From NCBI RefSeq assembly GCF_022836935.1, contig NZ_CP083241.1, positions 168,091-232,090 of the forward strand: DNA of 64,000 bases. Direction: 5' to 3'. The notes below the pieces were generated by a model. It worked only from the letters and a program-made list of their open reading frames with translations, did not search any database and was not told the DNA's origin. The first letter of the stretch is position 1, and each line of letters starts with the position of its first letter. Positions 3,741-25,955 of the stretch are shown piece after piece. Position numbers and translations under genes: made by a program. The DNA is from Ancylobacter polymorphus. Lineage in GTDB: Bacteria; Pseudomonadota; Alphaproteobacteria; Rhizobiales; Xanthobacteraceae.

Positions 3741-3799
3741 GATCGCAACGTGGCCCGCTCCGATCGCGCCGCGCTGCGCCGACGACAAGCGCGCCGAAC

Positions 3800-8475: not shown

Positions 8476-8486
8476 GCGAGGAAACG

Positions 8487-9557: not shown

Positions 9558-9579
9558 CGGAAGAGCACCCTCCCCCAAT

Positions 9580-9990
9580 CTAATCCTCCGCTTCCGGGGA
9601 GATCAGCGACAGCGAGGGAAAATAGCGCGCATAGCGGCCACGGTCCCGCGTGAGCAAAGGCAGTTCGTTCACCGCCGCATGAGCGCCGATGAAGAAATCC
9701 GGCAGCACGCCTGTGCGCGTCCCCCCGCCTTGCGGTAAGAGGCAAAGACCTTGCCGGCCAGAAACAGCGCCGCGCGCGGCATAGGCGCAACGGCTATCCC
9801 CGCTTCGCTCAAAAACCGCCTCGATATCCTCGATCCGCTCATAGCGGACCGAAAGCTCGGCATAGACGACATCGTTGACGAGCAACGGACCACGCAGGGA
9901 CGCCGCCTCCAACTGGTCGATCGACCATTGCGCCCAAACCGGGTCGTCGGTGACCAGATCGAGCAGGACATTGGTGTCGATCAGCGTCAC
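9580..9990 (-). pseudogene. PIN-domain toxin with two compensating frameshifts
   Basis: The 136-codon frame stays open and keeps the PIN acids: MTLIDTNVLLD, YAELSVRYERIEDIE and PDFFIGAHAAV. Codons about 60-90 read out of frame, however. The neighbouring frame there gives a normal PIN segment (SEAGIAVAPMPRAALFLAGK and VFASYRKAGG), which fits VapC relatives. The switches fall at an A5 run (9811-9815, one base too many) and a C run (9721-9726, one base too few). The toxin is therefore either a damaged but still open gene or affected by two sequencing errors in homopolymers. It overlaps the antitoxin stop by GTGA (9987-9990). Confidence 0.75.
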
Positions 9991-10220
9991 GTGTCACCGC
10001 GCGTCAGCGCCATGATCGCATCCGTCGTCAGCCCTGCGCCGGCATGCCCGCGCAGCTTGGCAAACCGACTGGGCGCGCGCTTTTCATCCGCCCGAGTCAA
10101 CACCACAGTGCCATCTGGTGCGCGCCGAAAATCCACCCGGCTCCCCGCCACAATGCCGAGCAGGTCGCGCACGGGCTTCGGGATCGTCACCTGGCCCTTG
10201 GACGTCACAGTCGTGCTCAT
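9987..10220 (-). CDS. AbrB/MazE-type antitoxin
   Basis: This 77-residue protein has the swapped-hairpin AbrB fold signature MSTTVTSKGQVTIPKPVRDL and then LGIVAGSRVDFRRAPDG. These small DNA-binding antitoxins repress their own operon and block a PIN or MazF partner, here the PIN gene overlapping its stop by 4 bp. Upstream, a dyad at 10242-10256 (ACTTA...TAAGT) is a candidate binding site. It lies between the rep operon and the tyrosine recombinase. Confidence 0.85.
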   Translation of the reverse strand: MSTTVTSKGQVTIPKPVRDLLGIVAGSRVDFRRAPDGTVVLTRADEKRAPSRFAKLRGHAGAGLTTDAIMALTRGDT

Positions 10221-10295
10221 CGCCCCTCTCCTGGTAAGGACACTTACGAGATAAGTATTACACGCCCTGGGTTCTTCAAGCCACGCCTCTCGCCC

Positions 10296-11525
10296 TCATG
10301 CCCGTTTCTTCTCCCCTTTCCGTTTGCCGATCAGCGCCATGAGCATCGGCCCGATGGAGAAGGTGCCGGCTTGCGCCTTTCGCGTCAGGTCGCGGATATA
10401 GCCGCCGGCACTGTTGATCGCCGTGCCGCGCTGAAGAATGGCGGCGACGACCACGGCGGCCTGCACCTCGCCCATGGCGGATTGCGCCTCCTCCCAGGCG
10501 CTGGGGCTGATCCCGAGCATCGGCCGGACCACGGCGACGGTCGCCATGAAGTCCCGCCAGTTGGAAATGCCGCCCCGGGCATAGTCGATGATATCGGGGC
10601 AGGCATCGAGGATCATGCCAAGAGGATAGGCCCCCTCTGGCGGACGCGGCGGTTCCGTCTTCAGTTCGGTCCCCGCCCCCCTGCTTTCTCGAAAGCGAGG
10701 TTCAAGATCAATAGGAGACTTTGGATTTGAATTCTGTTTGTGGCGCTCAGTTTGAGACTCATTGGCGCTTGAAAATGAGGTTTTTGCCTGCGCTTCCAGC
10801 AAGATGAGGATCTCGTCGGCCAGAATCGCGAGGTCTTCCGCAACACGCTCCAGCGTCGGGCGGTCAGCATTGCGCGGAATCCGCTCGACAATGGCCCGGT
10901 AGAGCCCATGGATCTCCATCCAGTCGGCGGGGCCCTGCCCGCACAGCTGCGTGGGAACGCCTTCCTCAAGGCCGGTGGCGATCATCTTGGCGATGTCCCG
11001 CCGGCACAGGGTGATGCGCTCGCGCACCAGCTTGAGCGCTCGCTCTTCCGCCTTCACTTCCTCGGCCCAGGCTTCGAACTCCTCGGCCCGCGCCACCAGC
11101 GGCGACAGGTCGAAGCCGAAGGCCCGCTCGATTTCGCCGGCGCGGTCCTTGCGGGCGTAGCGTTTGCCGTTGGGGCTGTCGCGCCGGACGATCAGCCCCG
11201 CATCCACCAGCACCGCGAGATGCCGGCGCAGCGTCGCCGGCGCCATGCCATGCGCCCGCAGCGACAATTGCTGGTTGGACGGGAAGACGATGAGGTCCTC
11301 GCCGGTCAGCGCGGTCTCCGGGTGAAACGACAGCAGCGCGTCAAGCACCGCCAGCGCCCGCTCGGACACACCGATGCGCGCCTTCGCGGTGCAGATCGCC
11401 CGGAACACGTTCCATTTATGCACCGCCTTGTCCAAGGGGCGGGCCTTCGCCACGGCCTGGCTCGCCACATGGGCAAGCGACAGCGACCGCCGCCCGAAGG
11501 GGGTCGTCGTGATATGCGTCTGCAT
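10296..11525 (-). CDS. repC: Plasmid replication initiator RepC
   Basis: This 409-residue protein matches RepC of repABC plasmids: an N-terminal start with TTPFGRRSLSLAHVASQ, winged-helix region (SNQQLSLRAHGMAPATLRRH, about 83-102) and C-terminal helical domain (LGISPSAWEEAQSAMGEVQA). RepC is the only protein needed to start replication, and the origin normally lies inside its own gene. An AT-rich stretch at 10684-10790 fits this. Its synthesis should be limited by the counter-transcribed RNA encoded between repB and repC. A GAAGGA sequence precedes the ATG. It is the last gene of the operon. Confidence 0.92.
   Translation of the reverse strand: MQTHITTTPFGRRSLSLAHVASQAVAKARPLDKAVHKWNVFRAICTAKARIGVSERALAVLDALLSFHPETALTGEDLIVFPSNQQLSLRAHGMAPATLRRHLAVLVDAGLIVRRDSPNGKRYARKDRAGEIERAFGFDLSPLVARAEEFEAWAEEVKAEERALKLVRERITLCRRDIAKMIATGLEEGVPTQLCGQGPADWMEIHGLYRAIVERIPRNADRPTLERVAEDLAILADEILILLEAQAKTSFSSANESQTERHKQNSNPKSPIDLEPRFRESRGAGTELKTEPPRPPEGAYPLGMILDACPDIIDYARGGISNWRDFMATVAVVRPMLGISPSAWEEAQSAMGEVQAAVVVAAILQRGTAINSAGGYIRDLTRKAQAGTFSIGPMLMALIGKRKGEKKRA
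10684..10790. other. AT-rich segment inside repC, likely origin of replication
   Basis: In an otherwise GC-rich gene this stretch is clearly AT-richer and encodes a low-complexity linker between the two RepC domains (SSANESQTERHKQNSNPKSP). RepABC plasmids characterised so far replicate from an AT-rich origin inside repC. Placement here is by analogy. Confidence 0.55.
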
Positions 11526-11593
11526 TTTCCTTCACCTTGATCTGGGCAAAAGAAAAACGCTCGCCGAAACGGCGCTGAGGCCTCGCATGAGGC

Positions 11594-11622
11594 TTGACGG
11601 TGATTCCAGGAAGTGCGATTCT
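11594..11622 (+). promoter_or_regulatory. Promoter of the counter-transcribed RNA
   Basis: TTGACG (11594-11599) and GATTCT (11617-11622) are separated by 17 bp and point opposite to the rep operon. Transcription would start near 11629, leading into the terminator hairpin at 11645-11671. Confidence 0.55.
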
Positions 11623-11628
11623 CAGGCT

Positions 11629-11682
11629 GTCACACGTTGAGAAGGGCTTCCGGAACTCTGTTTCGGGGGCCTTTTTCTTTTT
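11629..11682 (+). ncRNA. RepABC counter-transcribed RNA (incompatibility antisense RNA)
   Basis: It lies in the 197-bp repB-repC gap, antisense to the operon. A 12-bp stem (GGCTTCCGGAAC, 11645-11656, pairing with GTTTCGGGGGCC, 11660-11671, with G-U pairs) and a 3-nt loop are followed by TTTTTCTTTTT (11672-11682). This is a good intrinsic terminator. In known repABC plasmids a short RNA of this form and position pairs with the repC leader and lowers RepC synthesis. The 5' end is estimated from the promoter. Confidence 0.8.
11645..11682 (+). terminator. Intrinsic terminator of the counter-transcribed RNA
   Basis: Twelve paired bases, a TCT loop and a T-rich tract with one C interruption. This hairpin ends the antisense RNA; its complement lies in the repC leader. 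Confidence 0.75.
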
Positions 11683-11722
11683 GCCGGGTGTAGCATTGGG
11701 GCATGGGCCCCGGCTCAGCCGG

Positions 11723-12727
11723 TCAATTCGTCATCTCATCTCCCTTGTTCGCGTCCGAGAATTCCTCAAACAGCCTGTCGAGCTGGGAGGCAACGAAGTC
11801 GGCGAAATCCGGCACGGCCTTCTCGTTGAAGACCAGCGCCGTGCGCCCGCCTCCACGCTCGACATACCCTGCCCGGCGGCCCTGCGGCGTCGTCCAGACA
11901 TCGCTCCGCGCAGGCAGCCGGGGCTTGTCGGCCAGCCTCTGCCAGAGCGCCTGAAAGCGCCGGTCGCTGTCCATGGCCCGCAGGGCCGGGTCGTCCAGCA
12001 TCGCTTCCACGCTCTGGAGAAGTTTCGGGTTGTCCAGCTTCTCGGCGAGGCCGAGCCATCGTGCTCGTCCCGATTTGGGGGCCGGGCCGATACGCCGGAC
12101 AAGCGCTTCCGGAATACGGCGCGCAACGGCGATGTAACGGCTAAGATCGGCCTTGTCGGTGGAAAGGGCGGCGATGATGGTCTGCCGGTCATGGCCGGCA
12201 TCCTCCAGCCGCTTGGCGAACAGCGCTTTCTCGATAAACGACAGGTCTTGTCGGTCGAGATTCTCGCGCCCTTGCGCCACCACCAGCTCGGCGTCGCTCA
12301 GCGACTTGATGATCGCCTTCACCGAACGGCCGAGCCGCTCGGCGGCTCGCAGCCGGCGTCGGCCATAGGCGATCTGAAAGCGCCCGGCCGCATCAGGGTG
12401 CGGCCGCACGAGAATGGGCACCTGCTGTCCGTTCGCCTCGATGCTCGCGACCAGTTGCTCGAAGCCGGGATCGATCTCGATCGAAATCCGGTCGGCGATT
12501 GTCGAGCCGTCGATCTGGCTCGGCTCAAGCGATACCACGACATCGCTTGTGGCCAACTGCTGCTTCAGCCGTTCGCTGGCTCTCGCGGTTTCGGACAGCT
12601 CCTGGAGCGATGCGCCCATTGCCGCGACGGCGCCGGTGCGAACGCGCTCCGGTGCCCGCGCAGGGGAGGGGGCGGCAGCGTCCGGCTTCTTCAGGAACAG
12701 CGAATTGATCGCGTCCTTCCGACTCAT
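11723..12727 (-). CDS. repB: Plasmid partition protein RepB (ParB family)
   Basis: This 334-residue protein has the ParB/RepB domain: NGQQVPILVRPHPDAAGRFQ (about 97-116), YGRRRLRAAERLG, then the helix-turn-helix region RENLDRQDLSFIEKALFAKR. The C-terminal part is the dimerisation region. RepB binds parS sites, here GTTGGGAGCTCCCAAC, and works with RepA to segregate the plasmid. I prefer the ATG at 12727 (MSRKDAINSLF): AGGAGG lies 7 nt before it but only 1 nt before an ATG at 12733. The small upstream ORF ends with ATGA over this start, which supports the choice. Confidence 0.92.
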   Translation of the reverse strand: MSRKDAINSLFLKKPDAAAPSPARAPERVRTGAVAAMGASLQELSETARASERLKQQLATSDVVVSLEPSQIDGSTIADRISIEIDPGFEQLVASIEANGQQVPILVRPHPDAAGRFQIAYGRRRLRAAERLGRSVKAIIKSLSDAELVVAQGRENLDRQDLSFIEKALFAKRLEDAGHDRQTIIAALSTDKADLSRYIAVARRIPEALVRRIGPAPKSGRARWLGLAEKLDNPKLLQSVEAMLDDPALRAMDSDRRFQALWQRLADKPRLPARSDVWTTPQGRRAGYVERGGGRTALVFNEKAVPDFADFVASQLDRLFEEFSDANKGDEMTN

Positions 12728-12930
12728 CGCCATCCCTCCTGAATGAGGCGCCGCACGACAGGGTCGAGCCTCGGCGTGCTGTTGGGAGCTCCCAACGCGG
12801 CCGCGATGTCACCGCGGATCGCGCGCCCATGTGAGAGGGTCGCGTAGGCTTGCCTCGCCGTGTTGGGAGCTCCCAACACGGTCGGCCGGGGAGGGGAGGA
12901 GCAGGGCGCCATACCGCGATCCCTGTTCAT
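12724..12930 (-). CDS. Small repD-like ORF between repA and repB, carrying both parS sites
   Basis: This 68-codon frame begins on the last base of the repA stop (TGATG, start at 12930) and ends over the repB start (ATGA, 12724-12727). That is exact coupling on both sides. Its product has two LGAPN motifs because each parS palindrome is read as Leu-Gly-Ala-Pro-Asn. The C-terminal part ends LDPVVRRLIQEGWR. A small gene (repD) in the same place, with parS inside, is known from the octopine Ti plasmid repABC operon. I see no homology I can verify, so the name is by position only. Confidence 0.55.
   Translation of the reverse strand: MNRDRGMAPCSSPPRPTVLGAPNTARQAYATLSHGRAIRGDIAAALGAPNSTPRLDPVVRRLIQEGWR
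12781..12796. promoter_or_regulatory. parS site (RepB binding palindrome), copy 1
   Basis: GTTGGGAGCTCCCAAC is a perfect 16-bp palindrome and fits the repABC centromere consensus GTT-N4-GC-N4-AAC. It lies between repA and repB. Confidence 0.85.
12862..12877. promoter_or_regulatory. parS site (RepB binding palindrome), copy 2
   Basis: An identical GTTGGGAGCTCCCAAC, 81 bp from copy 1. Flanking bases extend the dyad (CGTG...CACG), giving a longer symmetric element than copy 1. Confidence 0.85.
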
Positions 12931-14162
12931 CACGCCCGCCCCCACGCGGCCTTGATCAGCCCTTCGATCTCGGCGTTCACAGCGTCCAGGGCTTCCATCG
13001 CTCGGTCATAGGTCGACCGCGTGAGATTCTCCCGCCCGATCTCATAGAGCGTCTGCTTGGTCAGGCCGGCATCGGAGATGGCAGCGGACTTCACCATCGG
13101 GTTGGTCAGGACATAATCGTCGAACAGGTTGCGCAGCAGGGCTGCCACCTTGGTCTGCGGGGCGTCCTGCGGCTCGAAGCGCGTGAACAGGTAGCGGAGG
13201 AAATCATATTTCAACTCTCCGCCCGCCTCGCGAACCACGCCGAGCAAGTCCCGCGTCATGAGCAGAAACTGGCTCATCGAGGCAATGTCCAGCATTTGCG
13301 GATGCACGGTAACGATCATCGCGGTCGCCGCGCACAGGCCGCTCAGGGTGAGGAATCCCAACTGAGGTGGGCAGTCGATGACAATAACGTCGTAGCGATC
13401 CGCCACCTCGTCAAAGGCCGCAGCCACGCGGGTAAAGAAGAGATCCCCTCGCGACCTGTCCGTGGCGGCCAGCGCCTTCGGCGTCGTGTGCTCGAACTCC
13501 ATCAGTTCGAGATTGCCGGGGATGAGATCGAGGCCGTCAAAATAGGTGGGCCGGATCACCTCGGCCAGCGGCCGACGGGCACCGTCATACCGAATGGCGG
13601 CGTAGAGCGTTTCGTTCGCAAGGACGTCGGTTTCCGGCATCACGCCAAGCAGGGCGGAGAGGCTAGCTTGCGGGTCGAGATCGACCGCGAGCACGCGGTA
13701 TCCCTGCAGTGCGAGGTACTGCGCCAGGTGAGCGGAAGTCGTGGTCTTGCCCGATCCGCCCTTGAAATTGGTGACCGCCAGAACCTGAAGATGTTCGCCC
13801 GCGCGACGATGCGGCACGAACTCGACGCTTTCCCTGCCGCGAGCCGACCCTGCCAGAAGACGTCGGATCTCATTGAGCTGTCCCAGCGTATACAGACGCC
13901 GGCCATTGGCGGCCGTCTCCGGCAGGGGGCCTTCTCCCGCAAGCGTCATTTTCCGCAAGGTCGAATCCGAAATGCCGATCAACCGCGCCGCTTCGCCGGA
14001 CGTGAAGCGGCGGAGAACCTTCTTCGACGAGGGCGGGAACAAGGCCTCGCTCATCGCCTGCAGCTGCGAACTCAACAATTCGGCCTGTGAGCCGATCGTC
14101 TCGTCCACACCAGCTATAATTTTTCGCGCGGGATCAGCGGCGTTCACGTCGAAAACTTTCAT
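12930..14162 (-). CDS. repA: Plasmid partition ATPase RepA (ParA family)
   Basis: This 410-residue protein has an N-terminal MerR-like helix-turn-helix (RRFTSGEAARLIGISDSTLR, about 52-71). A ParA ATPase domain follows: deviant Walker A FKGGSGKTTTSAHLAQYLAL, Walker A' LAVDLDPQASLSALLG and Walker B VIVIDCPPQLGFLTL. RepA segregates the plasmid with RepB and represses the rep operon. The start MKVFDVNAADPARK at 14162 gives the usual length of about 400; the open frame extends 69 codons further without family support. It is first in the operon. Confidence 0.92.
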   Translation of the reverse strand: MKVFDVNAADPARKIIAGVDETIGSQAELLSSQLQAMSEALFPPSSKKVLRRFTSGEAARLIGISDSTLRKMTLAGEGPLPETAANGRRLYTLGQLNEIRRLLAGSARGRESVEFVPHRRAGEHLQVLAVTNFKGGSGKTTTSAHLAQYLALQGYRVLAVDLDPQASLSALLGVMPETDVLANETLYAAIRYDGARRPLAEVIRPTYFDGLDLIPGNLELMEFEHTTPKALAATDRSRGDLFFTRVAAAFDEVADRYDVIVIDCPPQLGFLTLSGLCAATAMIVTVHPQMLDIASMSQFLLMTRDLLGVVREAGGELKYDFLRYLFTRFEPQDAPQTKVAALLRNLFDDYVLTNPMVKSAAISDAGLTKQTLYEIGRENLTRSTYDRAMEALDAVNAEIEGLIKAAWGRA

Positions 14163-14282
14163 CACGGATAAACTGCCAATACGGCATGTTTTCCGTGACG
14201 ATAAGCATGAACCGATTCGACGCAAGCGTTTAGTGGTTAACGAGACCTTACCAGCACGAAAGCGCCAGTGGCACCGGCCTGC

Positions 14283-14311
14283 TGACATTGAAGAACTTGG
14301 CGTGTTGTCAA
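14283..14311 (-). promoter_or_regulatory. Possible rep operon promoter
   Basis: On the minus strand TTGACA (14311-14306) is a perfect -35; the -10 at 17 bp spacing is ATGTCA, which is poor. This would give a leader of about 115 nt before repA, where RepA-RepB autorepression would act. Confidence 0.35.
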
Positions 14312-14369
14312 TACCTTGACCAAGATGCATTCCGCGACAGGACGCTTTCGGCCGGCTAGGGCGGGCCAA

Positions 14370-14730: not shown

Positions 14731-15243
14731 ATGCCTAGGGCGCTCAACCATTGGCTCGGAGAGCTTTACCGGCGCCATCACCGCGACCTCGTGCGGTTCG
14801 CCGCCCGGCTGGTGGGGGATCGCGACGGCGGCGAGGAAGTGGTGCAGAATGCCTATCTGCGGCTCGCCGGCCGCTCCGCGCAGGCGGTGGCGATCGAGCA
14901 TCCCAAGACCTATGCGTTTGCCGCGACCCGCACCGCCGCCATCGACTTCACTGCCCGGCGCCACGCCGAATGGCTTCACCGGGTCGACATTGAGGAAATC
15001 GACGCGCTGGCCGCCCGCGGCGATTGCGAGGGCGACCTGCACCACCGGCGCCGCATCGTCCGGCTCGCTGTGCTGCTGAACGAACTGCCGCCGGCCTGCC
15101 AGAGGGCTTTCGTGATGAACAAGCTGGAAGGCCGTGGCCATCGCGAGATCGCCGCGCATCTCGGCGTCTCCGTCAGCATGGTGGAGAAGCACATCCTGCG
15201 TGCGCTCATCCATTGCCGGGACCTCATGCGCGACGAGGAGTGA
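14731..15243 (+). CDS. fecI: ECF sigma factor, FecI type
   Basis: The 170-residue protein has sigma region 2 (HRDLVRFAARLVGDRDGGEE, about 17-36, then NAYLRLAGR) and region 4 (LPPACQRAFVMNKLEGRGHR followed by EIAAHLGVSVSMVEKHILRAL). Iron-starvation sigma factors of this group turn on the neighbouring receptor gene once a surface signal passes through FecR. It is followed 84 bp later by fecR and then the receptor, the standard order. Numbered here as the first of two FecI/FecR pairs. Confidence 0.88.
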   Translation: MPRALNHWLGELYRRHHRDLVRFAARLVGDRDGGEEVVQNAYLRLAGRSAQAVAIEHPKTYAFAATRTAAIDFTARRHAEWLHRVDIEEIDALAARGDCEGDLHHRRRIVRLAVLLNELPPACQRAFVMNKLEGRGHREIAAHLGVSVSMVEKHILRALIHCRDLMRDEE

Positions 15244-15327
15244 GGAAAGGCCATTGAGGATTTCGCGCGTGACAGGCGTCTATAGGGGTGTGCCTTTGTC
15301 CCATTCTGTTGCGAGACGCCCTTGGTA

Positions 15328-16302
15328 ATGTCGCCGCCCCATCGCCCGTCCTACCCGCCCCGTGCCCTGTCGGACGAGGCGCTGGCTTTCATCGTGCGCC
15401 TGCATTCCGGCGAGACGCAGCCGGCGGTTCTTGCCGCCTTCACGGCGTGGCGGCAACTGAGCCCCGACCACGAGGCGGCGGCACGGGAGGCGGAGCAGCT
15501 CTGGGGCGATGCGTCGCTTCTGCACCAGGATGCCCGCAGCGGCCTCATCCGCCCGGGCCCGGGCCGGCGCGCCGGCGACGGCCTGTCGCGACGCGACCTG
15601 CTGGCGGGAGCCGCCGGGCTCGGCCTCGCCGGCGCCGGCGGGGCGTGGCTCGCGGGACGGCTGGGGCCGCGTGCCGACATCGCCACCGGAACCGGTGACG
15701 TGCGGACGGTCACACTGGCCGACCGCTCTCAAGTCACGTTGAACGCCCGCACGGCGCTCGCGCTCGATTTCACCGCCGAACGGCGCGAGGTGCGGCTGCT
15801 CGAAGGGCAGGCGTTTTTCGACGTGGCGGCCGATTCCTCGCGGCCGTTCGAGGTGGTGGCGGGGGAGAGCCGGCTGCAGGCGCTAGGCACCGCCTTCGAT
15901 GTCGACGCCAATCGCGGCGACGGCTCGGTGGCGGTGAGTGTCGTCGAACATGCGGTGCGCGTGACAGGAGCGGACGAACGCACGCTGAAGGCGGGCGAGC
16001 GCCTGCGCGTCGGTGCGGATGGGCGCCTCGGGCCGGTCACGTTGCAGCCGGCCGATATCACTCTCGCCTGGCGCTCGGGTTTTTACATCGCGCAGGACCG
16101 TTCGCTCTCGGACATCATCGCGGCGCTGCGTCCCTACCATTCCGGCTGGATCATTGCCCGCGGCGCCGGCCTCGACACGCTGCGCGTCAATGCCGTGCTC
16201 GACCTGCGCACCCCCGAGGCGTCGCTTGCCGCTCTGGCGCAGGGGCTCCCGGTCCGGGTGATCCCGCTTTCGGCGTTCCTCACCATCGTCTCGGCGGCGT
16301 GA
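15328..16302 (+). CDS. fecR: FecR family anti-sigma regulator
   Basis: The 324-residue protein has an N-terminal sigma-binding region (SDEALAFIVRLHSGETQPAV) and a membrane segment preceded by twin arginines (LSRRDLLAGAAGLGLAGAGG, about 83-102). The periplasmic FecR domain follows (DVRTVTLADRSQVTLNARTA). Its C-terminal STN-like domain contacts the receptor plug. The twin-Arg motif fits Tat-dependent insertion, as reported for FecR proteins. The ATG at 15328 (MSPPHRPSYP) is favoured over a TTG two codons earlier. It links the receptor at 16420 to the sigma factor at 14731. Confidence 0.88.
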   Translation: MSPPHRPSYPPRALSDEALAFIVRLHSGETQPAVLAAFTAWRQLSPDHEAAAREAEQLWGDASLLHQDARSGLIRPGPGRRAGDGLSRRDLLAGAAGLGLAGAGGAWLAGRLGPRADIATGTGDVRTVTLADRSQVTLNARTALALDFTAERREVRLLEGQAFFDVAADSSRPFEVVAGESRLQALGTAFDVDANRGDGSVAVSVVEHAVRVTGADERTLKAGERLRVGADGRLGPVTLQPADITLAWRSGFYIAQDRSLSDIIAALRPYHSGWIIARGAGLDTLRVNAVLDLRTPEASLAALAQGLPVRVIPLSAFLTIVSAA

Positions 16303-16419: not shown

Positions 16420-19400
16420 ATGGCGGGCTTCAGGGGACGAAAGGGTGTTTTGTGGGCATGCCTGACGGCATCGACGATGCTGATGCCGCTGCATCTCGGC
16501 GCGGCGCAGGCGCAGCCGGCGGGCGCGGTCCAGCGCAGCTTCGACATACCGGCCCAGCCGCTCGGCGCGGCGCTGACCGCCTTCGCCCGCCAGACCGGCA
16601 TCCAGTTCGCCTATCCCGCCTCGCTCACCTCCGGGCGGACCTCGCCGGCGCTGCGCGGCAGCTTCTCGCCGGAAGACGCGCTGGCGCGGCTGCTGGCCGG
16701 AAGCGGGCTGATCTATGCCTTCACGGGCCCGGCCCGCGTGACGATCTCGGCGCCGGTCTCGGGCGGCGGCGTGGACAGTGCCGCCGACGGCGCGATCGCC
16801 CTTGACGCCATCGACGTCTCCGGCGCCCGCGCGGCGGCGGACACGCCGTTCGAGACCCCGGGCTCCACCAACTACATCTCAGCCGAAGAGATCGAGCGCT
16901 TCCCGCCGCAGACCGCCGGCGCGTTGTTCCAGGGCACGCCGGGTGTCATTTCCGGCGGCGGCAATAACGGCGCCTCGATCGACCCGAACATTCGCGGCCT
17001 GCAGGGCCAGAACCGCGTCGCCACTACGATTGACGGCTCCCAGCAATCGACCTCCTCCTATCGCGGCTATTCCGGCATCGACAGCCGCACTTATGTCGAC
17101 CCGGATCTCATTTCGGGCATCACCGTCACCAAGGGCCCGGACGGCGCGGTCGCCGGGGCGATCGGCGGCACCATCGCCATGCAGACGCTGGACGTCGAGG
17201 ACATTCTTCAGGCCGGCGAGCGTTGGGGCGTGCGTGTGCGCGGCGGGCTCGCCACCAATTCGGTCGCGCCGGTTGTCGGCGAAACGGCGGCGGTGTTCGG
17301 CGGCGGCGACGGCGCGGCCATCACCAATGGCAGCTTCGCCCTCGCGGTGCGGGAGGAGAATGTCGACGTGATCGGCGCGGTGGTGCGGCGCAAGACCGGC
17401 AATTACTTTGCCGGCACGCAGGGCTCCCTCACCACCACCGACTATCTCGGAAACGAGGTGCCGCTGTCGAATTACGGCCATGGCCAGCTTGTCTACAACA
17501 CCTCGGAAGACGTGACCTCGGCGCTGCTGAAAGCCACTTTCCGCCCCACCGACGAGCAGGAACTGCAGATCGGCTATCTCTATTACGGCAACGAGTTCGG
17601 CGAGATTTCGCCTTCCGCGATCAATGCCGGAACCAATGTGACCTTCCAGATCCCGCTCAGCTCGGTCGCCATCAACCAGCTGACGGCGCGCTATCATTAT
17701 GAGCCCGCCAACAACGACCTCGTCGACCTCAAGATCAATGCCTACCTCTCCAACACCGATGAAAACAATGTCTTCGCCGTTCTCGGCACCACGCCGGAAC
17801 TGCAGCAGCAATCGAAGAATGTCGGCGTCAACGCCAGCAACACCTCGCATTTCATGCTGAAGGACACGCCGCTCGATCTCACCCTGGGCGGCTCATTCAC
17901 CTATGAGGACGCAGAGCCCGTATCCGTCGACACCTGGGCCGATGCGACGTGGTGGGCGATTCCGGCCGATGGCGACCGCACCATCGGCGCGCTGTTCGCC
18001 CGCGTGAACTGGGAGCCGACCCCGTGGCTCGCCTTGGCGGCGGGGGTGGAATACCTCGCCTATGACACCAACTTCACCGGCACGACCTATTACGCGACCG
18101 ACGAACCCTTCAGCGGCTATTCCGGCGATGGCTTCAGCCCGAGCGCCAGCATCACCGTGACGCCACTTGAGGGCTGGCAGATCTATGGCCAGTACCAGAG
18201 CGGCATCCGCCCGCCCAGCGTGCGCGAGACCAGCCAGACCCGCGCCGACCAGGTGTTCACCAGCGATCTCGACGCCGAACAGGCGAGCAATTGGGAAGTG
18301 GGCACCAACTTCCTGCGCGACAATCTCTTCATGGAGGGCGACAAGGCCCGGCTGAAGCTCGCCTATTTCGACAATACCACGAACAACTATATCGGCCGCA
18401 CCTTCACCGGTACGATGAGCCTGTTCAATTATGATTATGTGCGCTTCAAGGGCTTCGAAATTTCCGGCCGCTACGATGCCGGGCCGATCTTCACCGAATT
18501 CGGCTTCAACTACTACACCGACTACGAAGCTTGCCTCGATGACGGCACCTGCCTCGACTACACTCTGCCGGCCGATTACCTGACCAATCAGGTGCCCCCG
18601 CAGTTCACCGCGTCCTTCACCGCCGGCGCGCGGCTGTTCGACGACCGCGTGACCATTGGCGGCCGCGTCACCTATATGGGCGAGCGCCTCGCCCCCGTGG
18701 TGGATGACGGCTCCTATTTCGTCGTCACCAAGCTGTGGGAGCCCTACACGGTCGTCGATGCCTTCGTGCAGTGGAAGCTGAACGAGAACCTGACGCTGGA
18801 TGTCAGCGCGCTGAACATTCTCGACGCCTATTATGTCGACGCGCTGAACAACACCGACATGCCCGCCCCCGGCCGCACCATCACCGCGACCCTGACTGGG
18901 CGCTTCGGCAGCGGCGAACCGCTGGCCCCGTTGCCGCTCGGCCTGCGGCTGAACAGCGAGGCGTGGACCGGGCTCTATGCCGGCGCCTCCGTCGGCTATG
19001 GCTTCGCGTCCATCGACGGCACGACGACGCTGGCGGATGGTAGTGCCAACGCCATTGCGGCGACGGAATCGGCGAACGAGACGCTCGACGGCATGCTGGG
19101 CGGTGGCCAGATCGGCTACAATTACCAGTTCCGCAATGGGATCGTGCTCGGCGTCGAGGCGGATTTCAGCTGGCTCGCCCACAAGACCACGCATGCAGCG
19201 ATCGCCACCGAGGCGCAGATCCTCATCGACAACGAGATGTGGCAGGCCAAGACGGATTATGCGTTCGACTGGCTCTCCACCATCCGCGCCAAGGCCGGCT
19301 ATGCCCTCAACGACCGGCTGTTCGTGTATGGCACCGGCGGCGTCGCCTTCCTGCGCGAGAGCGAGCAGCGCTCGCAATACATCGCCACCACGTCAGGGGC

Positions 19401-19770
19401 GAGCGTGCCGAACGGCCACACCACGACGCTCTATTTCACCGAGGCGACCGGTGCGACCCGCACCGGCTTCGCCGTGGGCGGCGGCGCCGAATACGCGCTC
19501 TCCGACCGCTGGTCGTTGAAGATGGACTATCTGTTCACCGGCTTCGGCAGCGAGAGCTTCCTGTTCCCCGGCGCCCGGGCCGGCGTCGGCAAAAGCTATT
19601 CGGTGCGCACGGTCTGCCGGGCCAACAACTCGACCCCGCCATGCCCTGGGGGCAAAACGGTCATCATCACCCAAAACTTCACCGGCAGCTCCGAGACGGT
19701 GAATGGCCGCGAGGCCTCCAACGAGGCGGACCTGCAGATGCTCAAGATCGGCCTCAACTATCGTTTCTGA
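16420..19770 (+). CDS. TonB-dependent receptor fused to a C-terminal Omp25-like beta-barrel
   Basis: This 1116-residue protein begins with a signal peptide (to about residue 31, LGAAQAQPA) and an STN signalling domain (SFDIPAQPLGAALTAFARQT). A plug and TonB-dependent barrel follow, ending at residue 829 in TITATLTGRF, a normal Phe-ended outer-membrane terminus. After a short linker a second barrel starts at about 847 (EAWTGLYAGASVGYGFASID) and ends LKIGLNYRF. This part resembles Omp25/RopB-type eight-strand porin-like proteins (GGGQIGYNYQF, GVEADFSW). Typical receptors are 700-850 residues. The STN domain and upstream FecI/FecR indicate iron-siderophore signalling and uptake. Its last 17 bp overlap the convergent fhuF. 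Confidence 0.88.
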   Translation: MAGFRGRKGVLWACLTASTMLMPLHLGAAQAQPAGAVQRSFDIPAQPLGAALTAFARQTGIQFAYPASLTSGRTSPALRGSFSPEDALARLLAGSGLIYAFTGPARVTISAPVSGGGVDSAADGAIALDAIDVSGARAAADTPFETPGSTNYISAEEIERFPPQTAGALFQGTPGVISGGGNNGASIDPNIRGLQGQNRVATTIDGSQQSTSSYRGYSGIDSRTYVDPDLISGITVTKGPDGAVAGAIGGTIAMQTLDVEDILQAGERWGVRVRGGLATNSVAPVVGETAAVFGGGDGAAITNGSFALAVREENVDVIGAVVRRKTGNYFAGTQGSLTTTDYLGNEVPLSNYGHGQLVYNTSEDVTSALLKATFRPTDEQELQIGYLYYGNEFGEISPSAINAGTNVTFQIPLSSVAINQLTARYHYEPANNDLVDLKINAYLSNTDENNVFAVLGTTPELQQQSKNVGVNASNTSHFMLKDTPLDLTLGGSFTYEDAEPVSVDTWADATWWAIPADGDRTIGALFARVNWEPTPWLALAAGVEYLAYDTNFTGTTYYATDEPFSGYSGDGFSPSASITVTPLEGWQIYGQYQSGIRPPSVRETSQTRADQVFTSDLDAEQASNWEVGTNFLRDNLFMEGDKARLKLAYFDNTTNNYIGRTFTGTMSLFNYDYVRFKGFEISGRYDAGPIFTEFGFNYYTDYEACLDDGTCLDYTLPADYLTNQVPPQFTASFTAGARLFDDRVTIGGRVTYMGERLAPVVDDGSYFVVTKLWEPYTVVDAFVQWKLNENLTLDVSALNILDAYYVDALNNTDMPAPGRTITATLTGRFGSGEPLAPLPLGLRLNSEAWTGLYAGASVGYGFASIDGTTTLADGSANAIAATESANETLDGMLGGGQIGYNYQFRNGIVLGVEADFSWLAHKTTHAAIATEAQILIDNEMWQAKTDYAFDWLSTIRAKAGYALNDRLFVYGTGGVAFLRESEQRSQYIATTSGASVPNGHTTTLYFTEATGATRTGFAVGGGAEYALSDRWSLKMDYLFTGFGSESFLFPGARAGVGKSYSVRTVCRANNSTPPCPGGKTVIITQNFTGSSETVNGREASNEADLQMLKIGLNYRF

Positions 19771-20479
19771 CCATCGGATCCCGATCAAGCGGACAGGTTC
19801 CGCAATAGGGGAGGGTAGGGATCAGGTAGCGCAGGCAGCACACGCGGCGCTGGCGCGTGCCGTCGGCGAGGTAGCGCACCGGTTCGGCGAGCGGGTTGGC
19901 GGCACCATTGGCGAAGCGCCGACGCGCCAGCAACTCCCGCCCCTGTTGCACCCCGGGGTGAGCTTCCCCCAGCAACTGCGCGCAATGGCCGATGACCCTC
20001 TCGAACAGGTTGCCGGCATTGCTCCAGATCACGCGCCGCGTCAGTCCGCTCGCCCGGGCGAGGCTGTCGATGACCGGCGGCAAATGCTCGGTGACAAGGA
20101 ACCCGAAGCGTTCCTCCGTGTCGCCGGGCGCTGAGGCCGTCCCCGCATGCGGCAGCGCGAAGGTGGCGACGCCGCCTTGAGCGTCCAGCGCGACCCGCAT
20201 CCCGCGAGGGGCAAGTGGCAGGTGCCAATCGGCGGCGATCGCCGCCGCCGTGGCCGGCACCAGAAGACGGGAGAAATACAGCTTCGACCATTGCGAGGCG
20301 ACCGCGCGCGGCTCCGGCTGCTCATAGCGCTCGCCGAAGCGGGCAAGCTCGGCGGCGAGGCGGTCGCTCCGCAGAAGCGCGTCGAGCGGTTCGAGCGCCG
20401 CCCGACCGTCATAGACGATGAGCGCGTCGCCGAACTCCTCTAGCGCGCCGGGGAACAGAGGGGCCAGCGGCTCGATCAT
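19754..20479 (-). CDS. fhuF: Siderophore-iron reductase, FhuF family
   Basis: The 241-residue protein ends with the FhuF [2Fe-2S] signature CCLRYLIPTLPYCGTCPL (Cys-Cys-x10-Cys-x2-Cys, about 214-230). FhuF-type proteins reduce ferric iron in imported hydroxamate siderophores in the cytoplasm to release it. It is the last gene of the receptor-fhuD-fhuB-fhuF operon; its ATG overlaps the fhuB stop (ATGA, 20476-20479). Its end overlaps the end of the convergent receptor gene by 17 bp. Confidence 0.9.
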   Translation of the reverse strand: MIEPLAPLFPGALEEFGDALIVYDGRAALEPLDALLRSDRLAAELARFGERYEQPEPRAVASQWSKLYFSRLLVPATAAAIAADWHLPLAPRGMRVALDAQGGVATFALPHAGTASAPGDTEERFGFLVTEHLPPVIDSLARASGLTRRVIWSNAGNLFERVIGHCAQLLGEAHPGVQQGRELLARRRFANGAANPLAEPVRYLADGTRQRRVCCLRYLIPTLPYCGTCPLDRDPMVRNDS

Positions 20480-22479
20480 CGCCGCCCCATCAGCACGGCA
20501 TAACCCAGCGCGCCGATAACCGTCACCACCAGCCCGGCGGGTGCGTCCCAGGGGAAAGCGATGGTCCGGGCGAGCAGATCCGCCAGCATGAGCAGGATCG
20601 CACCGGCGAGCATGGCGCCGGCGATCTCCGCAAGCGGCGTGGCGAGGCCGGCGCGGCGGACGATATGCGGCGCCAGTAGACCGACAAAACTGATCGGCCC
20701 GACGATCAGTGTCGCCGTGGCCGTGAGCACCGCGGTGAGCACAATCAGCGCCAGCCGTGCCCGCGTGACGCCGACACCGACCGAGGCCGCCGTCGCGCGC
20801 CCGAGCGGCAGCAGCGCGAGCCAGCGTCGAACCAAGGGCAGTGTGAGCAGGGTTGCGGCGAGGACGGCAAGGGCCACGCCGGCATCTGCCGGGCGCACGG
20901 CATAGGTGGAGCCGGACAGCCAGCCGAGCAGCTGCACCAGTCGGGGGTCGCCGACCAGCACCGCCACCGAGAGGATCGAGGCGGCAAAAGCGCTGACCGC
21001 CACCCCGGTCAGCAGCAATTGCTCCGGCGCGAAACCGGAACGCCCGGCGAGGCGCAGGCTCAGCCCCAGCATGGCAAGGGCGCCGAAGCTGGCGAGCACC
21101 ATGGCCTCGGACCGGCTAAGTGGCGGCAGCAGCAGCACCGCCGGGATCAGCACCAGTGCCGCGCCTGCGGAGACCCCGGTGAGTTCAGGGCTCGCCAGCG
21201 CATTGCCGGTGAGCCGCTGCATCAGGCAGCCGGCCAGCGCGAGCATGGCACCCGCCGCGCCCGCGGCCGCAAGGCGCGGCCAGCGCCAGGGCAGCACGTC
21301 GGCAAGGTCGCCCCCGGTGGCGAGGAACCAGCCTTCCGGCAGGCGCCCCAGCGACACGCCGGCAGCAACCGCGAGCAGCAGCGCGAGAGCCGCGAGCACC
21401 AGGACCGGCCCCGCCCGGCGCCGGGCGACGGCAGTGGCAGCGCGCGCGCGCGGCGGCGCCGGCGGAAGACGGCCGAGCAGGATGAGCAGCAAGGGCGCGC
21501 CCAGAAGCGCCGTCACGATACCGGTCGGGATGTCGATCACGCCGGAGACAAGCAGCACGGTTTGATCGGTCACCAGCAGCAGCCCCGCCGAGAGCAGCGG
21601 TGCCGCCACGAGCGACAGGCTTGCGCGCCGGGCGCCGGAGAGATCGGCCAGTGCCGCACCGGCGAGGCCGACAAAGCCGAGAATGCCGAACTCGGCGCAG
21701 ACCAGTGCCGCCGGCACGAGCGCCAGGACCAGCGCGACCAGCCGCAGCCGCGCTGGCGCCAGGCCGAGAGCGCGCATTCCCTCGTCGCCAAGTTCGAGCA
21801 GGGCGAGCGGGCGGCGGATGAGCAGCGCCCCGGCGCCCGTGGCGAGGACCGCCAGCGCCAAGAGCCGCACCCCCGACCAATTGTCCTGCACCAGCGAACC
21901 CGACTGCCAGATCAAGAGTTCGCCGATCTCCTCGAAATGCACCAGGATCAGGAGGCTGGTGAAGGCATCGAGGCACAGCCCCAGCACCAGCCCGTTGAGG
22001 ATCAGCCGCAGCGGGTCGAGACCGGAGCGGAGCGACAGCAGCAGAACGAGGCCCGCCGCCAGGCCGGCGCCGGCGAGAGCCGGCAGGAAGAAGCCGGCGG
22101 CGAGCCCGGGCAGCCAGATCAGCGTCCCGGCGACGCTGGCACGCGCCGCGGCGAACAGGCCGAGCGTGCCGGCTTCCGCCAGTGGGTTGCGCAGGCTCTG
22201 GCGCAGCAGGACCGCGCTGGTGCCGAGCAGCCAGCCGGCGAGCAGCGCGGCCGCCACGCGCGGCAGCAAGCCGTAAAAGACCCGCACTTCGGCAAGATCC
22301 GTCCCATCAGGAGCGAACAGCCGGAGCGACCAGTGGGTGACGCCGATGCGGGCGAGGTTGAATCCGGCCAGCGCCACGCCAAGACCGAGCAGCGCCGCGA
22401 TGAGCGGCAGACCGGGCAGGCGGGGCCAGCCGAAGCGGGGCGCGCCGACACCCTCCTCGCGGCGGGCGGCTTCAGACAT
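20476..22479 (-). CDS. fhuB: Iron-siderophore ABC permease, double-length FhuB type
   Basis: At 667 residues this is twice the size of a FecCD permease. Two homologous halves with many membrane spans can be seen. Each has the permease loop that contacts the ATPase, for example in EFGILGFVGLAGAALADLSG (first half) and GPISFVGLLAPHIVRRA (second half). FhuB brings ferric hydroxamates across the inner membrane with FhuC and FhuD. The start MSEAARREEGVGAPRFGWPR at 22479 overlaps the fhuD stop by 8 bp. The matching ATPase is not in this operon but at 27653. Confidence 0.9.
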   Translation of the reverse strand: MSEAARREEGVGAPRFGWPRLPGLPLIAALLGLGVALAGFNLARIGVTHWSLRLFAPDGTDLAEVRVFYGLLPRVAAALLAGWLLGTSAVLLRQSLRNPLAEAGTLGLFAAARASVAGTLIWLPGLAAGFFLPALAGAGLAAGLVLLLSLRSGLDPLRLILNGLVLGLCLDAFTSLLILVHFEEIGELLIWQSGSLVQDNWSGVRLLALAVLATGAGALLIRRPLALLELGDEGMRALGLAPARLRLVALVLALVPAALVCAEFGILGFVGLAGAALADLSGARRASLSLVAAPLLSAGLLLVTDQTVLLVSGVIDIPTGIVTALLGAPLLLILLGRLPPAPPRARAATAVARRRAGPVLVLAALALLLAVAAGVSLGRLPEGWFLATGGDLADVLPWRWPRLAAAGAAGAMLALAGCLMQRLTGNALASPELTGVSAGAALVLIPAVLLLPPLSRSEAMVLASFGALAMLGLSLRLAGRSGFAPEQLLLTGVAVSAFAASILSVAVLVGDPRLVQLLGWLSGSTYAVRPADAGVALAVLAATLLTLPLVRRWLALLPLGRATAASVGVGVTRARLALIVLTAVLTATATLIVGPISFVGLLAPHIVRRAGLATPLAEIAGAMLAGAILLMLADLLARTIAFPWDAPAGLVVTVIGALGYAVLMGRR

Positions 22480-23380
22480 CGCGCAGGACCGGAAGCGTTG
22501 CGGCGAGCGCGCGCGCCAGGCGGGTGACCGAGCGTGGTCCGCCATTGGGATAGACCACCGGGATGCGGACGAGCCGGCCCTCCCTCACGGCGGGCAAGGC
22601 TCTCCAGACCGGGCTCCGCCCCAGCCGGGCCAGCGCCGCCTCGGTCTCGGCCCCGCGATCGAAATGCACGATCACCGCTTCGGGTCGCTCGGCGAGGCGC
22701 AGAAGTGGCGCGTTGGTGACGCCGAAGCCATTGACGCGGCCGTCATAGGCATTGGCGAGGCCGAGGCGCGCCAGTGTGTCCCCCACCATGCCGCGACCGC
22801 CGAACAGCGAGAGATTGCGCCCGTCGCGGTTGAACCGGCAGACATAGACGGGCCGGACGAACCCGCGCAGCGCCGCAGCCGCGTGCACAAGCGTGGTCTC
22901 GCATTCTTCAATGGGCGCATCCGCCCGTGACGGTTCGCCCAGCAGCGTGGCGACGAGGCGCAGAAGATCCTCGCCATGCGCAATGGCGGCCTCCCGGCCG
23001 GCCAGCACCGGCAACGGCACGAGCGGCGCGATGGCCGCGAGGTTCTCCAACCCCGCCGCCTGCCAATCGGCCAGCAGAATGCGCCGGGGCGCCAGCCGGC
23101 GCAGATAATCGAGATTCGGCTGCGCGAGCGGCCCGAGGTCGCGCACTTCCTCCGGCAGCAACGGATCGGCCACCAGCCGCCGATAGAGCGCGACATTGGG
23201 GGTTGCCAGCGGTGCGACACCGAGCGTCAGCATGAGTTCCGTGATCAGCAGGTCCATGCTGACCACGCCCAAGGCTTCGCCGGCGGCGGCGCCTCGTCCG
23301 GCGAGCAGCAGCGGCAGAGCAAACGCCCCGGCCAGAAGCCGGCGCCGGTCGAGGCCGCCGCCCACCGTATCTCTCACCAT
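22472..23380 (-). CDS. fhuD: Periplasmic iron-siderophore-binding protein, FhuD type
   Basis: This 302-residue protein has a Tat-like signal (LDRRRLLAGAFALPLLLAG, about 10-28). The FhuD/BtuF helical-backbone layout follows, with conserved turns LGPLAQPNLDYLRRLAPRRI and LFGGRGMVGDTLARLGLANA. It hands ferric siderophore from the receptor to FhuB. The ATG at 23380 overlaps the receptor stop by 7 bp (23374-23380). A start at the following GTG is possible and would alter only one residue. Confidence 0.88.
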   Translation of the reverse strand: MVRDTVGGGLDRRRLLAGAFALPLLLAGRGAAAGEALGVVSMDLLITELMLTLGVAPLATPNVALYRRLVADPLLPEEVRDLGPLAQPNLDYLRRLAPRRILLADWQAAGLENLAAIAPLVPLPVLAGREAAIAHGEDLLRLVATLLGEPSRADAPIEECETTLVHAAAALRGFVRPVYVCRFNRDGRNLSLFGGRGMVGDTLARLGLANAYDGRVNGFGVTNAPLLRLAERPEAVIVHFDRGAETEAALARLGRSPVWRALPAVREGRLVRIPVVYPNGGPRSVTRLARALAATLPVLRDV

Positions 23381-25848
23381 TTATAGCTCAGCGTGCCGAT
23401 GACCGTCGCCGGCTCGCCATAGCGGCATCCGTCAATGGAGACGCAGGTATAGTACTGCTCGTTGAACACGTTGCGGGCGTTCACCTTCAGCGTCGCGCCC
23501 TCGAGCTTCGGGTTGTAGACGCCGAGATCGATGCTGGCCATGGCGTCGACCAGCGTATAGGCCGGCACCTCATAGACGCTGTCGGTGAGATTGGTGGTGC
23601 CGATATAGCGGATGCCCGCCCCGATCTTCACGCCCCGCAGCCCGATCTCGTCCAGCGTATAGGTGACCCAGAGCGAGGCGGCGTTGCGCGGCACTAGCGC
23701 CACCTGCTGGCCGATATCCTCGGTGTAAGCGCTCTCGATGATGGTGGCGTCGGTGTAGCTGTAGGCGGCGATCAGCTCCAGCCGTCCGATCGTGCCGCGC
23801 GCCTCGAATTCAAAGCCGCGCGAGCGCACCTCGCCCTGCTGGTAGGAATAGCCCAGCGCGTCATAGGTCACGACATTGGTCTGGGTGATGTCGTAGACGG
23901 CGGCGGTGAACAGCAGGTTCTGCCCCAGCGGCTCATAGCGCAGGCCCGCCTCATATTGCAGGCCCTTGCTCGGATCGAGCGGCGCGCCGGTGGCGTAGTT
24001 GAGACCGGCCTGCGGCTGGAACGACTGGCTGACGCTCGCATAGGGCGCGAGCCCGTTGTCGAAGAGATAGACGAGGCCGGCGCGTCCGGTGAAGGCGGCG
24101 TCTTCCTGATCCGTGACCTTGCCGGTCTGGTAGCTGGTGGTGGTGCTGTTGGTCCAGTCCTGCCGCCCGCCGAGCAGCAGCACCCAGTGCTCGCCGAACT
24201 TGATCTGGTCCTGCACGAACACGCCATACTGGTTGGCCAGCGTGTCGGAGCCGCGGTCGATCGCATAGTTGATGTTGGCGCCGCCATAGGAAACGCCGGT
24301 ATCGAGATCGAGGAAGCTGTAGGAGCCGCCGCGGTAGCGATGGGAATCGTAGGAGCGCAGATAGTAATCGAAGCCGACCAGCGCCGTGTGCTCGGCGCCC
24401 AGCGCCTCGAACTTCGCTTCCAGCGAATTGGCCGAGGTCACGCCATAGGAGCTGTCCATCCGCGTCTGCGCGATCCGCGCCAGCAGCCCGCCGGTCGCCC
24501 AGAGCGGCGCGAGATTGCCGGTCATGTAGCTCCAGTCGACATCGGCATTGTAGTAGCGGTTATTGCTGCGGAAGGTCAGGCCATTGTCGAAGCGGTGCTC
24601 GAACAGGGCAGCGGCCGAGTAGCTGTCGCTGTCATAGCCATCGAAGCCATCGATGCCGAGAAATTCACTGCGTGGAATGTTGCCGGCGCTGACATCCTCG
24701 AACAGCAGCGGGGTGGCAAATCCGGTATCGACGCTCTGATAATTCGCCAGCAGCGTCAGGCTGGTGTCGTCGGTCGGGCTCCACGTGATCGCCGGGGCGA
24801 TATAGGCCTTGTCGTCGGGCGTGTTGTTCACCCAGTTCTCGCCGTCGCGGTAAAGGCCGGTGAGCCGGTAGGTGAGCGTGCCGTCCTCGGTCAGCTTGCC
24901 GCCGAAATCCGCCGATATCTGCTTATAGTCATAGGTGCCGCCTTCGAGATTGACCTCGCGCAGCGTCTCCTCCGTCGGCCGCTTGGAAATGGCGTTGATG
25001 ACGCCGCCGGGCGACATCTGGCCGTAGAGGATGGAGGCCGGGCCGCGCAGCACCTCGACCCGCTCCAGCCCATAAGGCTCCTGGCCGCCGCCATAGACAT
25101 TGGACTGGTACTGCATGCCGTCGCGCAGCATGCCGCTCGACCCGTCGGCGACATTGAAGCCGCGCATCATCACATCGTCGGCCATGCGGCTGAAGGCGCC
25201 GGACTGGGCGACCACGCCGGGCGTGTAGAGCAGCGTGTCGGTGAGCGAAGTGGCATTCTGGTCGGCGATCTGGTCCGCCGTCACCACGCTGATCGACTGC
25301 GGCGTCTCGATGATCGGCGTGGCGATGCCGGTGCCGGACGAGGTCGTGGTGGCAAGATACCCGTCGACCGGGCCGAACGGATTCTGCTCGCCCGCGACCT
25401 CGATGGTGCCGAGCTCGATCGAGCCGTCGGCGGCCGATGCGTCTGCGCCGGTGGACGGGCCGGAGATGGTCAGCGTGTTGCCGCTGATCCGATAGGTGAG
25501 CCCCGAGCCCGCCAGCAGCCGGTCCAGCGCCTCGGCATAGGTGAGACTGCCGGCGAGGGCTGGCGCGTTGCGACCCCGCGCGAGGCCGGCGTCGAAGAAC
25601 AGCTGCAGACCCGTGGCATTGGAGAAGGCGATCAACGCCCGCGACAGCGGCTGGGCCGGCATGTCGAAACGGGTCCGGGCCGCAACGGATGCGCCTTGCG
25701 CGTGCGCGGCTCCCATCGGCAGCAGGGCGCCGACGAACGCGCCGGTCATCATCAGGGACATCAGCAGCGCCGATTTGCGCTCCCGCCGCGCGCGCACCTG
25801 TTGTCCCGGCTTCCGGCCGGACCTTTCCCCGATGCCGCCTGCGTGCAT
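23374..25848 (-). CDS. TonB-dependent siderophore receptor with STN signalling domain
   Basis: This 824-residue protein has a signal peptide (ending about residue 51, GAAHAQGAS) and an STN domain (RFDMPAQPLSRALIAFSNAT). The plug carries TPQSISVVTADQI and YGLERVEVLRGPASILYGQM, which is the typical siderophore-receptor plug end. The barrel ends in VIGTLSYKW, an aromatic terminus. A Cys pair near the C-terminus (YTCVSIDGCRYGEP) is usual in FhuA/FpvA-type receptors. The start at 25848 has AGGGG 8 nt upstream. It heads the receptor-fhuD-fhuB-fhuF operon and lies downstream of the second fecI/fecR pair, which should control it. Confidence 0.9.
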   Translation of the reverse strand: MHAGGIGERSGRKPGQQVRARRERKSALLMSLMMTGAFVGALLPMGAAHAQGASVAARTRFDMPAQPLSRALIAFSNATGLQLFFDAGLARGRNAPALAGSLTYAEALDRLLAGSGLTYRISGNTLTISGPSTGADASAADGSIELGTIEVAGEQNPFGPVDGYLATTTSSGTGIATPIIETPQSISVVTADQIADQNATSLTDTLLYTPGVVAQSGAFSRMADDVMMRGFNVADGSSGMLRDGMQYQSNVYGGGQEPYGLERVEVLRGPASILYGQMSPGGVINAISKRPTEETLREVNLEGGTYDYKQISADFGGKLTEDGTLTYRLTGLYRDGENWVNNTPDDKAYIAPAITWSPTDDTSLTLLANYQSVDTGFATPLLFEDVSAGNIPRSEFLGIDGFDGYDSDSYSAAALFEHRFDNGLTFRSNNRYYNADVDWSYMTGNLAPLWATGGLLARIAQTRMDSSYGVTSANSLEAKFEALGAEHTALVGFDYYLRSYDSHRYRGGSYSFLDLDTGVSYGGANINYAIDRGSDTLANQYGVFVQDQIKFGEHWVLLLGGRQDWTNSTTTSYQTGKVTDQEDAAFTGRAGLVYLFDNGLAPYASVSQSFQPQAGLNYATGAPLDPSKGLQYEAGLRYEPLGQNLLFTAAVYDITQTNVVTYDALGYSYQQGEVRSRGFEFEARGTIGRLELIAAYSYTDATIIESAYTEDIGQQVALVPRNAASLWVTYTLDEIGLRGVKIGAGIRYIGTTNLTDSVYEVPAYTLVDAMASIDLGVYNPKLEGATLKVNARNVFNEQYYTCVSIDGCRYGEPATVIGTLSYKW

Positions 25849-25955
25849 TGACCAACCCCTGTCCTGTCCGTGAAGGGCGCCGTCTGCGGCCCTCACAAGG
25901 TCAGACACCCCGGACGGGGAAACAAATGAGCGCGAAGGCGAAAAAATCGTTCCGG

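Follow-up and report, generated by a model that had tools for sequence, protein, structure and literature searches.

In the 64,000-nucleotide stretch of Ancylobacter polymorphus DNA analysed here (the window), one gene joins a TonB-dependent receptor to a second, complete barrel domain, and this two-part chain is a real, conserved alphaproteobacterial design. The gene (16420-19770, + strand) is a single open reading frame of 1116 codons with no internal stops, and the frame, its Pfam and PDB matches and AF2 modelling identify its product as a fusion of a HasR-like receptor with an Omp25/OmpA-like barrel. Reading along the + strand, the chain contains an STN signalling domain (residues 61-111; 16600-16752; Pfam PF07660), a plug domain (residues 144-251; 16849-17172; PF07715), and a receptor barrel of 22 predicted strands (residues 269-829; 17224-18906), which is delimited by AF2 at low confidence and by Pfam PF00593, with the Pfam TonB_dep_Rec_b-barrel match itself covering residues 385-800. 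A 19-residue linker (residues 830-848; 18907-18963) then leads from the receptor barrel into the second barrel, which has eight predicted strands (residues 849-1116; 18964-19767; PF13505). The fourth extracellular loop of this barrel (L4; residues 1050-1096; 19567-19707), as judged by loop-length comparison, is enlarged and carries an extra hairpin.

The STN domain, the plug and the 22 strands, the last counted on a low-confidence model, are the features of a FecA/HasR-type surface-signalling receptor. The second barrel has those of an Omp25/31-type OMP_b-brl barrel: eight strands and a match to Pfam OMP_b-brl (PF13505) over residues 845-1043 (E 2.6e-13) that exceeds the curated cut-off, together with a match to OmpA_membrane over residues 852-1039. 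A sequence comparison with the PDB returns no relatives of this barrel, and its closest solved folds are a Legionella porin (9nh2), OmpA, NspA and OmpW. Modelled by itself it is predicted strongly (pLDDT 92.6), with L4 modelled confidently, and the entire 1116-residue chain is predicted weakly (pLDDT 59.5). The first-pass annotation had placed the end of the receptor at F829 and had proposed that a full second barrel ending in NYRF at residue 1116 follows it, so that one chain would form two outer-membrane barrels. The first boundary is borne out by the 11 unfused relatives collected, all of which stop at the aligned position (10 with F, one with L). The end of the chain is confirmed as well, with both Pfam and AF2 indicating a complete eight-stranded barrel; the 22 plus 8 predicted strands then support two outer-membrane barrels from one chain, within the limits of a weak whole-chain model.

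The fusion is not an artefact, because a paralogue, genomes of the genus and of the family, and plasmid records all carry it. The paralogue (P0002; 18605-22162 of the same contig) has the same layout and is 39% identical in an alignment of nearly full length. A search for other receptors with the same C-terminal domain brings the total of different full-length fused genes to 46, spread over several families of alphaproteobacteria; these comprise P0002 and 45 members of a deduplicated full-length set, the gene in the window included, which also holds the 11 unfused relatives. Within the genus, 10 of 30 genomes have the fusion (in one, G002, it is split by contig ends). In the family, junction-spanning matches occur in 29 of 296 genomes and 11 of 47 genera, a count that includes a copy in two pieces (G249), the one in G002 cut by the contig end, and a short frame of 450 residues (G080). 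Among 397 genomes of the order, the fusion is found in the A. polymorphus genome (G000), G053 and G480; scans of the class (385 genomes) and phylum (398), at strict thresholds that divergent fusions may escape, give no further junction-spanning HasR-type fusion besides that of G000. In named records (79 loci from the best 80 of 350 matches) nine loci carry it (L039-L047, L044 being truncated where its contig ends), and the closest named fused genes among those best 80 matches are from Ancylobacter rudongensis and Xanthobacteraceae bacterium 501b. Plasmid records give 22 matches, and the seven that cover 80% or more of the query are four from Pseudochrobactrum and one each from Shinella, Ketogulonicigenium and Novosphingobium. 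Where these seven are annotated at all, the gene is merely called 'TonB-dependent receptor'.

Comparison with two orthologues gives a dN/dS of 0.19-0.20 for the second barrel, which indicates purifying selection, and 0.09-0.11 for the receptor barrel. The idea that a misassembly or a lost stop codon created the chain is left with a negligible chance, given 46 distinct conserved genes under purifying selection, some on plasmid records titled complete; assembly error or frameshift is ruled out by the 39% paralogue and the genus and plasmid copies. Separate genes in all close relatives, which the first-pass annotation had named as grounds for rejecting the fusion, are likewise not seen. Two other apparent fusions in long frames, L117 (816 residues) and L076 (907 residues), were rejected as chance frame extensions preceding standalone barrels.

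The receptor half is, by sequence, HasR-like, i.e. of the hemophore/heme receptor type. HasR is its best solved relative (314 bits versus 114 for the next molecule) and the best match by fold of the whole-chain model; its score against the TonB-hemin subfamily TIGR01785 (316.4 bits) lies just under the curated cut-off of 316.85. It shares STN, plug and a 22-strand barrel with HasR of Serratia (PDB 3csl), but HasR ends with its own barrel, whereas the fused chain adds a second. A further difference lies in the histidines. HasR ligates heme through two histidines, one in the plug and one in a loop. The HasR-type relative L199 has histidines at the plug GGHG and loop GGAH columns; in the alignment none of the 45 fused receptors, and none of the 10 other unfused relatives, has a histidine at either. 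The gene in the window lacks this mark of HasR proper, and its plug reads YRGY (residues 214-217) where L199 has GGHG. Compared with HasR-type receptors, the fused receptors have YxGY in the plug in most cases, a shorter loop, and no histidines in these columns. Other histidines within the L199-aligned loop occur among the fused receptors in L162 and L163 alone, and within the plug stretch a single one is found, in L046. The L162 and L163 histidines form an HWH motif in the loop aligned with residues 597-618, at columns that differ from that of the L199 histidine; L162 also has a HasA-like neighbour. No column with at least 90% histidine exists in either the fused receptors or the fused barrels, where the barrel maximum is 43%. 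Receptor residues 705 and 711 (18532-18552) are a cysteine pair, six apart, that is kept in 45/45 fused and 10/11 unfused receptors and is likely a loop disulphide.

Upstream of the fusion gene, on the same strand, lie genes for a FecI-type ECF sigma factor (14731-15243; Pfam Sigma70_r4_2 and Sigma70_r2) and a FecR-type anti-sigma factor (15322-16302; Pfam FecR and DUF4880), the FecI/FecR pair characteristic of FecA/HasR-type systems. The partners of HasR in Serratia are of this FecI/FecR type. Counting neighbours as sequence clusters, at loci some of which end early, a sigma factor of the same cluster is upstream in 42/45 fused loci, a FecR of the same cluster in 37/45, and both in 36/45 fused and 7/11 unfused loci. 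Downstream genes are more mixed. A heme-oxygenase cluster is found in seven of the 45 fused loci (three of the seven members were scanned with Pfam, and all three are heme oxygenases), HasA-like genes in three, always accompanied by a type I secretion pair, and ExbB and TonB in five and four, respectively, as judged from one scanned member per cluster. Heme oxygenase or HasA-like genes are thus downstream in 10/45 fused loci, and at least one of these, ExbB or TonB in 13/45; the remaining 35/45, some of which end early, have neither heme oxygenase nor HasA-like neighbours. The name 'HasA-like' is used because these proteins cluster with a protein annotated as HasA in the L199 record. The HasA-like proteins of L179 and L159 have no PDB relatives, three of the four HasA-like proteins match no HasA model in Pfam, and neither the four nor that of L199 match one in NCBIfam. 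The Pfam HasA model, PF06438, has no match in 30 genus genomes, and was silent on the controls too.

The locus in the window has none of the heme-oxygenase, HasA-like, ExbB or TonB clusters, and no heme genes among the neighbours scanned, so that no HasA-like gene adjoins the receptor as it does in 3/45 fused loci. The single heme-oxygenase match of this genome adjoins a different receptor. Downstream of the fusion gene, convergent with it and overlapping it by 17 bases, is a siderophore-type cluster (19754-25908) that encodes a FhuF-like reductase, a double-length FecCD permease, a binding protein and an STN-type receptor.

A quick tree built from 46 fused barrels and 70 standalone ones places 45 of the former in a single clade (SH-aLRT 99). 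The exception, on a Shinella plasmid (L192:7959-11243), belongs to the same receptor family, and its barrel lies outside the fused clade on a long branch, with a short loop 4; it perhaps goes back to a fusion event of its own or to a barrel exchange. In the receptor tree (56 rows: 45 fused and 11 unfused, with P0002 absent and three of its near relatives present), fused and unfused receptors are intermixed with four changes, and a single clade of all fused receptors is rejected (AU p 7e-8). Both trees are quick ones, built without bootstrap. Receptor and barrel distances are correlated, with a Mantel r of 0.76 (n=44, L192 left out and P0002 not in); the largest of 999 permutations gave 0.17. 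Given a single barrel clade that lacks only the Shinella member, and receptors that do not group in this way, one old fusion within the HasR-type family followed by barrel losses, which is the simplest reading, or by re-pairing, would fit better than many separate fusions.

Conserved positions suggest where the second barrel acts. When 45 fused barrels (P0002 included, L192 excluded) are compared with 70 standalone barrels, 21 positions reach a conservation of 85% or more in the former and do not exceed 35% in the latter; the standalone set is not a random one, its members having been fetched by similarity to the barrel of the gene in the window or from the same genome. Each fused barrel matches 16-21 of the 21 residues and each standalone barrel 0-5; the Shinella barrel has two. 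The predicted extracellular half, to which 169 of the 272 positions counted belong, holds 19 of the 21 (Fisher p 0.003), a placement that uses the strand limits of the predicted model and a residue list drawn from the same alignment. By comparison, only one of the 26 positions conserved in both groups lies in that half. Loop 4 is also distinct: its median length is 47 residues (23-71) in the 45 fused barrels and 11 (2-21) in the 70 standalone barrels, and its dN/dS of 0.30-0.39 makes it the fastest-evolving of the barrel parts tested. Since the signature persists at 56% mean divergence and sits on one side, it points to a surface task, as far as the model places it correctly; ancestry alone would give some such positions. 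An earlier suggestion, that the second barrel ties the receptor to peptidoglycan, is not favoured, given that Pfam finds no peptidoglycan-binding domain in the 1116-residue protein and that the fused-specific conservation is extracellular.

We tentatively favour, at a little less than an even chance, a co-receptor role: tethered at the cell surface, the second barrel would bind heme or a heme carrier and supply it to the HasR-like receptor. From the receptor barrel, the chain would run through the short linker on the periplasmic side into the eight-strand barrel, which would serve as a permanently tethered co-receptor. Its extracellular loops, i.e. the long L4 and the signature residues near 984-987, 1053-1055 and 1096-1097, would catch heme or a heme-bearing molecule, raising the local concentration of this ligand beside the HasR-like pore. 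The pore would then import the ligand by TonB, and the STN domain would report occupancy to FecR/FecI. We infer here that both barrels fold correctly in one membrane, that the ligand is heme, and that the task is capture and hand-over. The proposal is favoured because of work on the outer-membrane Hbps of Bartonella. As presented in parts of PMC3483173, these proteins are heme binders that increase the uptake of heme by Serratia HemR (in a table) and HasR (as data not shown), and a passage of PMC8877253 describes the Hbp Pap31 as homologous to Brucella Omp31 and Agrobacterium Omp25. Like this Omp25/Omp31 family, to which the Hbps are likened from their published description, the second barrel is an eight-strand PF13505 barrel. 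Those proteins stand alone, however, and the fused barrels are set apart by an extracellular signature peculiar to their clade and by a longer L4. The co-receptor proposal gains from HasR being the best match, from the 10/45 loci with heme-oxygenase or HasA-like genes, from the single barrel clade, from the Mantel r of 0.76, and from the 19/21 signature placement. Several observations weaken it, above all those on histidines and on neighbouring genes: histidines are absent from the L199 columns, the second barrel has no conserved histidine, 35/45 loci have no heme-oxygenase or HasA-like genes, the locus in the window is siderophore-type, and loop 4 evolves fastest.

Much of the same evidence could be read as a docking or gating module, whose loops would control selectivity or signalling, either by folding over or against those of the receptor or by binding a protein carrier, with no heme binding of their own. 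This is an unlikely yet credible alternative. A fused-specific signature on the predicted extracellular side and a long, confidently modelled L4 agree with it, and a linker that is nearly constant over 45 fusions (18-28 residues, median 22) is in keeping with two barrels that sit next to each other in a fixed arrangement. However, no model is confident enough to indicate a contact between the barrels, and L4 varies widely in sequence and in length (23-71). The absence of histidines from the HasR-type columns in 45/45 raises another alternative, that the family abandoned the heme task of HasR and imports a different chelate, which the second barrel would capture. The siderophore-type reductase, permease, binding protein and second receptor beside the gene are in keeping with this, but heme-oxygenase or HasA-like genes lie a few genes downstream in 10/45 fused loci, and we regard a non-heme ligand as improbable. 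Quite improbable, finally, is a role in assembly or retention, in which the second barrel supplies the C-terminal signal for the barrel assembly machinery or holds the receptor in a membrane or LPS patch. The final residue of the fused chain is F in 44/44, and F at the old terminus, position 829, is less strictly kept than at the unfused ends (F 29, L 14, I 1; n=44, L192 left out and P0002 not in), as such a role would have it; yet it leaves unexplained a conserved extracellular signature that is mostly absent from standalone barrels, and the unfused relatives manage without the barrel.

A second kind of receptor has the same arrangement. In genome G052, a receptor whose best PDB match is ZnuD (L213:23-3238) ends in an OMP_b-brl barrel, and the same ending is found in G130, G146 and G121 (L222, L223 and L224 among the loci). 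A scan of 198 family genomes gives at least five with matches that span the ZnuD-like receptor end and the barrel (these four and G170); most other matches listed cover just one of the two, either a barrel or a receptor end, the latter almost always closed by a stop. In G170 (contig C33; L221:2229-7862, minus strand), an open frame of 1878 codons appears to run from a ZnuD-like receptor barrel into four tandem Omp25-type barrels that are 49-58% identical among themselves, in a draft genome with Ns at the locus and the receptor start out of frame. The eight ZnuD-type fused barrels group together (SH-aLRT 100) and separately from those of the HasR-type fusions, and the ZnuD-type fusion is therefore considered independent. 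As far as sequences can tell, the fused design occurs widely and has more than one origin. It is conceivable, if doubtful, that HasR-like and ZnuD-like receptors, two unrelated TonB-dependent types, independently gained C-terminal Omp25-type ligand-gathering co-receptors, up to four in tandem, as a general alphaproteobacterial design.

Natural fusions of two or three alphaproteobacterial outer-membrane barrels with Omp25-type domains have been described; examples in PMC4827864 are MnoP (BRP + OprB) and BRP + AEP + BRP. The chain described here resembles them in bacterial class, in joining more than one barrel and in having an Omp25-type (BRP) domain among these, but the partners in section 17 of that paper are porin-like or alginate-exporter-like, and that section includes no TonB-dependent receptor. 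The literature searched, which leaves most subscription journals outside, yielded no account of a second barrel joined to a TonB receptor. A passage of PMC3483173 describes the transfer of heme from heme-binding barrels at the surface to TonB receptors as an unknown step. In a natural fusion of such a pair, stoichiometry and distance are fixed, which would make the transfer step directly testable. The fused chains, which hold two and perhaps even five barrels and have a former C-terminal signal in their interior, are also natural substrates for questions about the barrel assembly machinery.

RepC and RepA/RepB-type partition genes (10296-14369) adjoin the receptor cassette in the window and mark a repABC-like plasmid replicon on the 232-kb contig (C3). 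Three genomes of the genus (G018:C1:3265531-3274495, L187 and L189) have two fused receptor genes within ~10 kb. On a Pseudochrobactrum plasmid (L191), an unfused receptor (3394-6120) stands beside a fused one (7956-11609), each with a separate sigma/FecR cassette. In A. vacuolatus, a frame of 116 codons (L065:5806-6153), of which only the last stretch matches the C-terminal ~52 residues of the fused barrel, is by this match a remnant of such a barrel.
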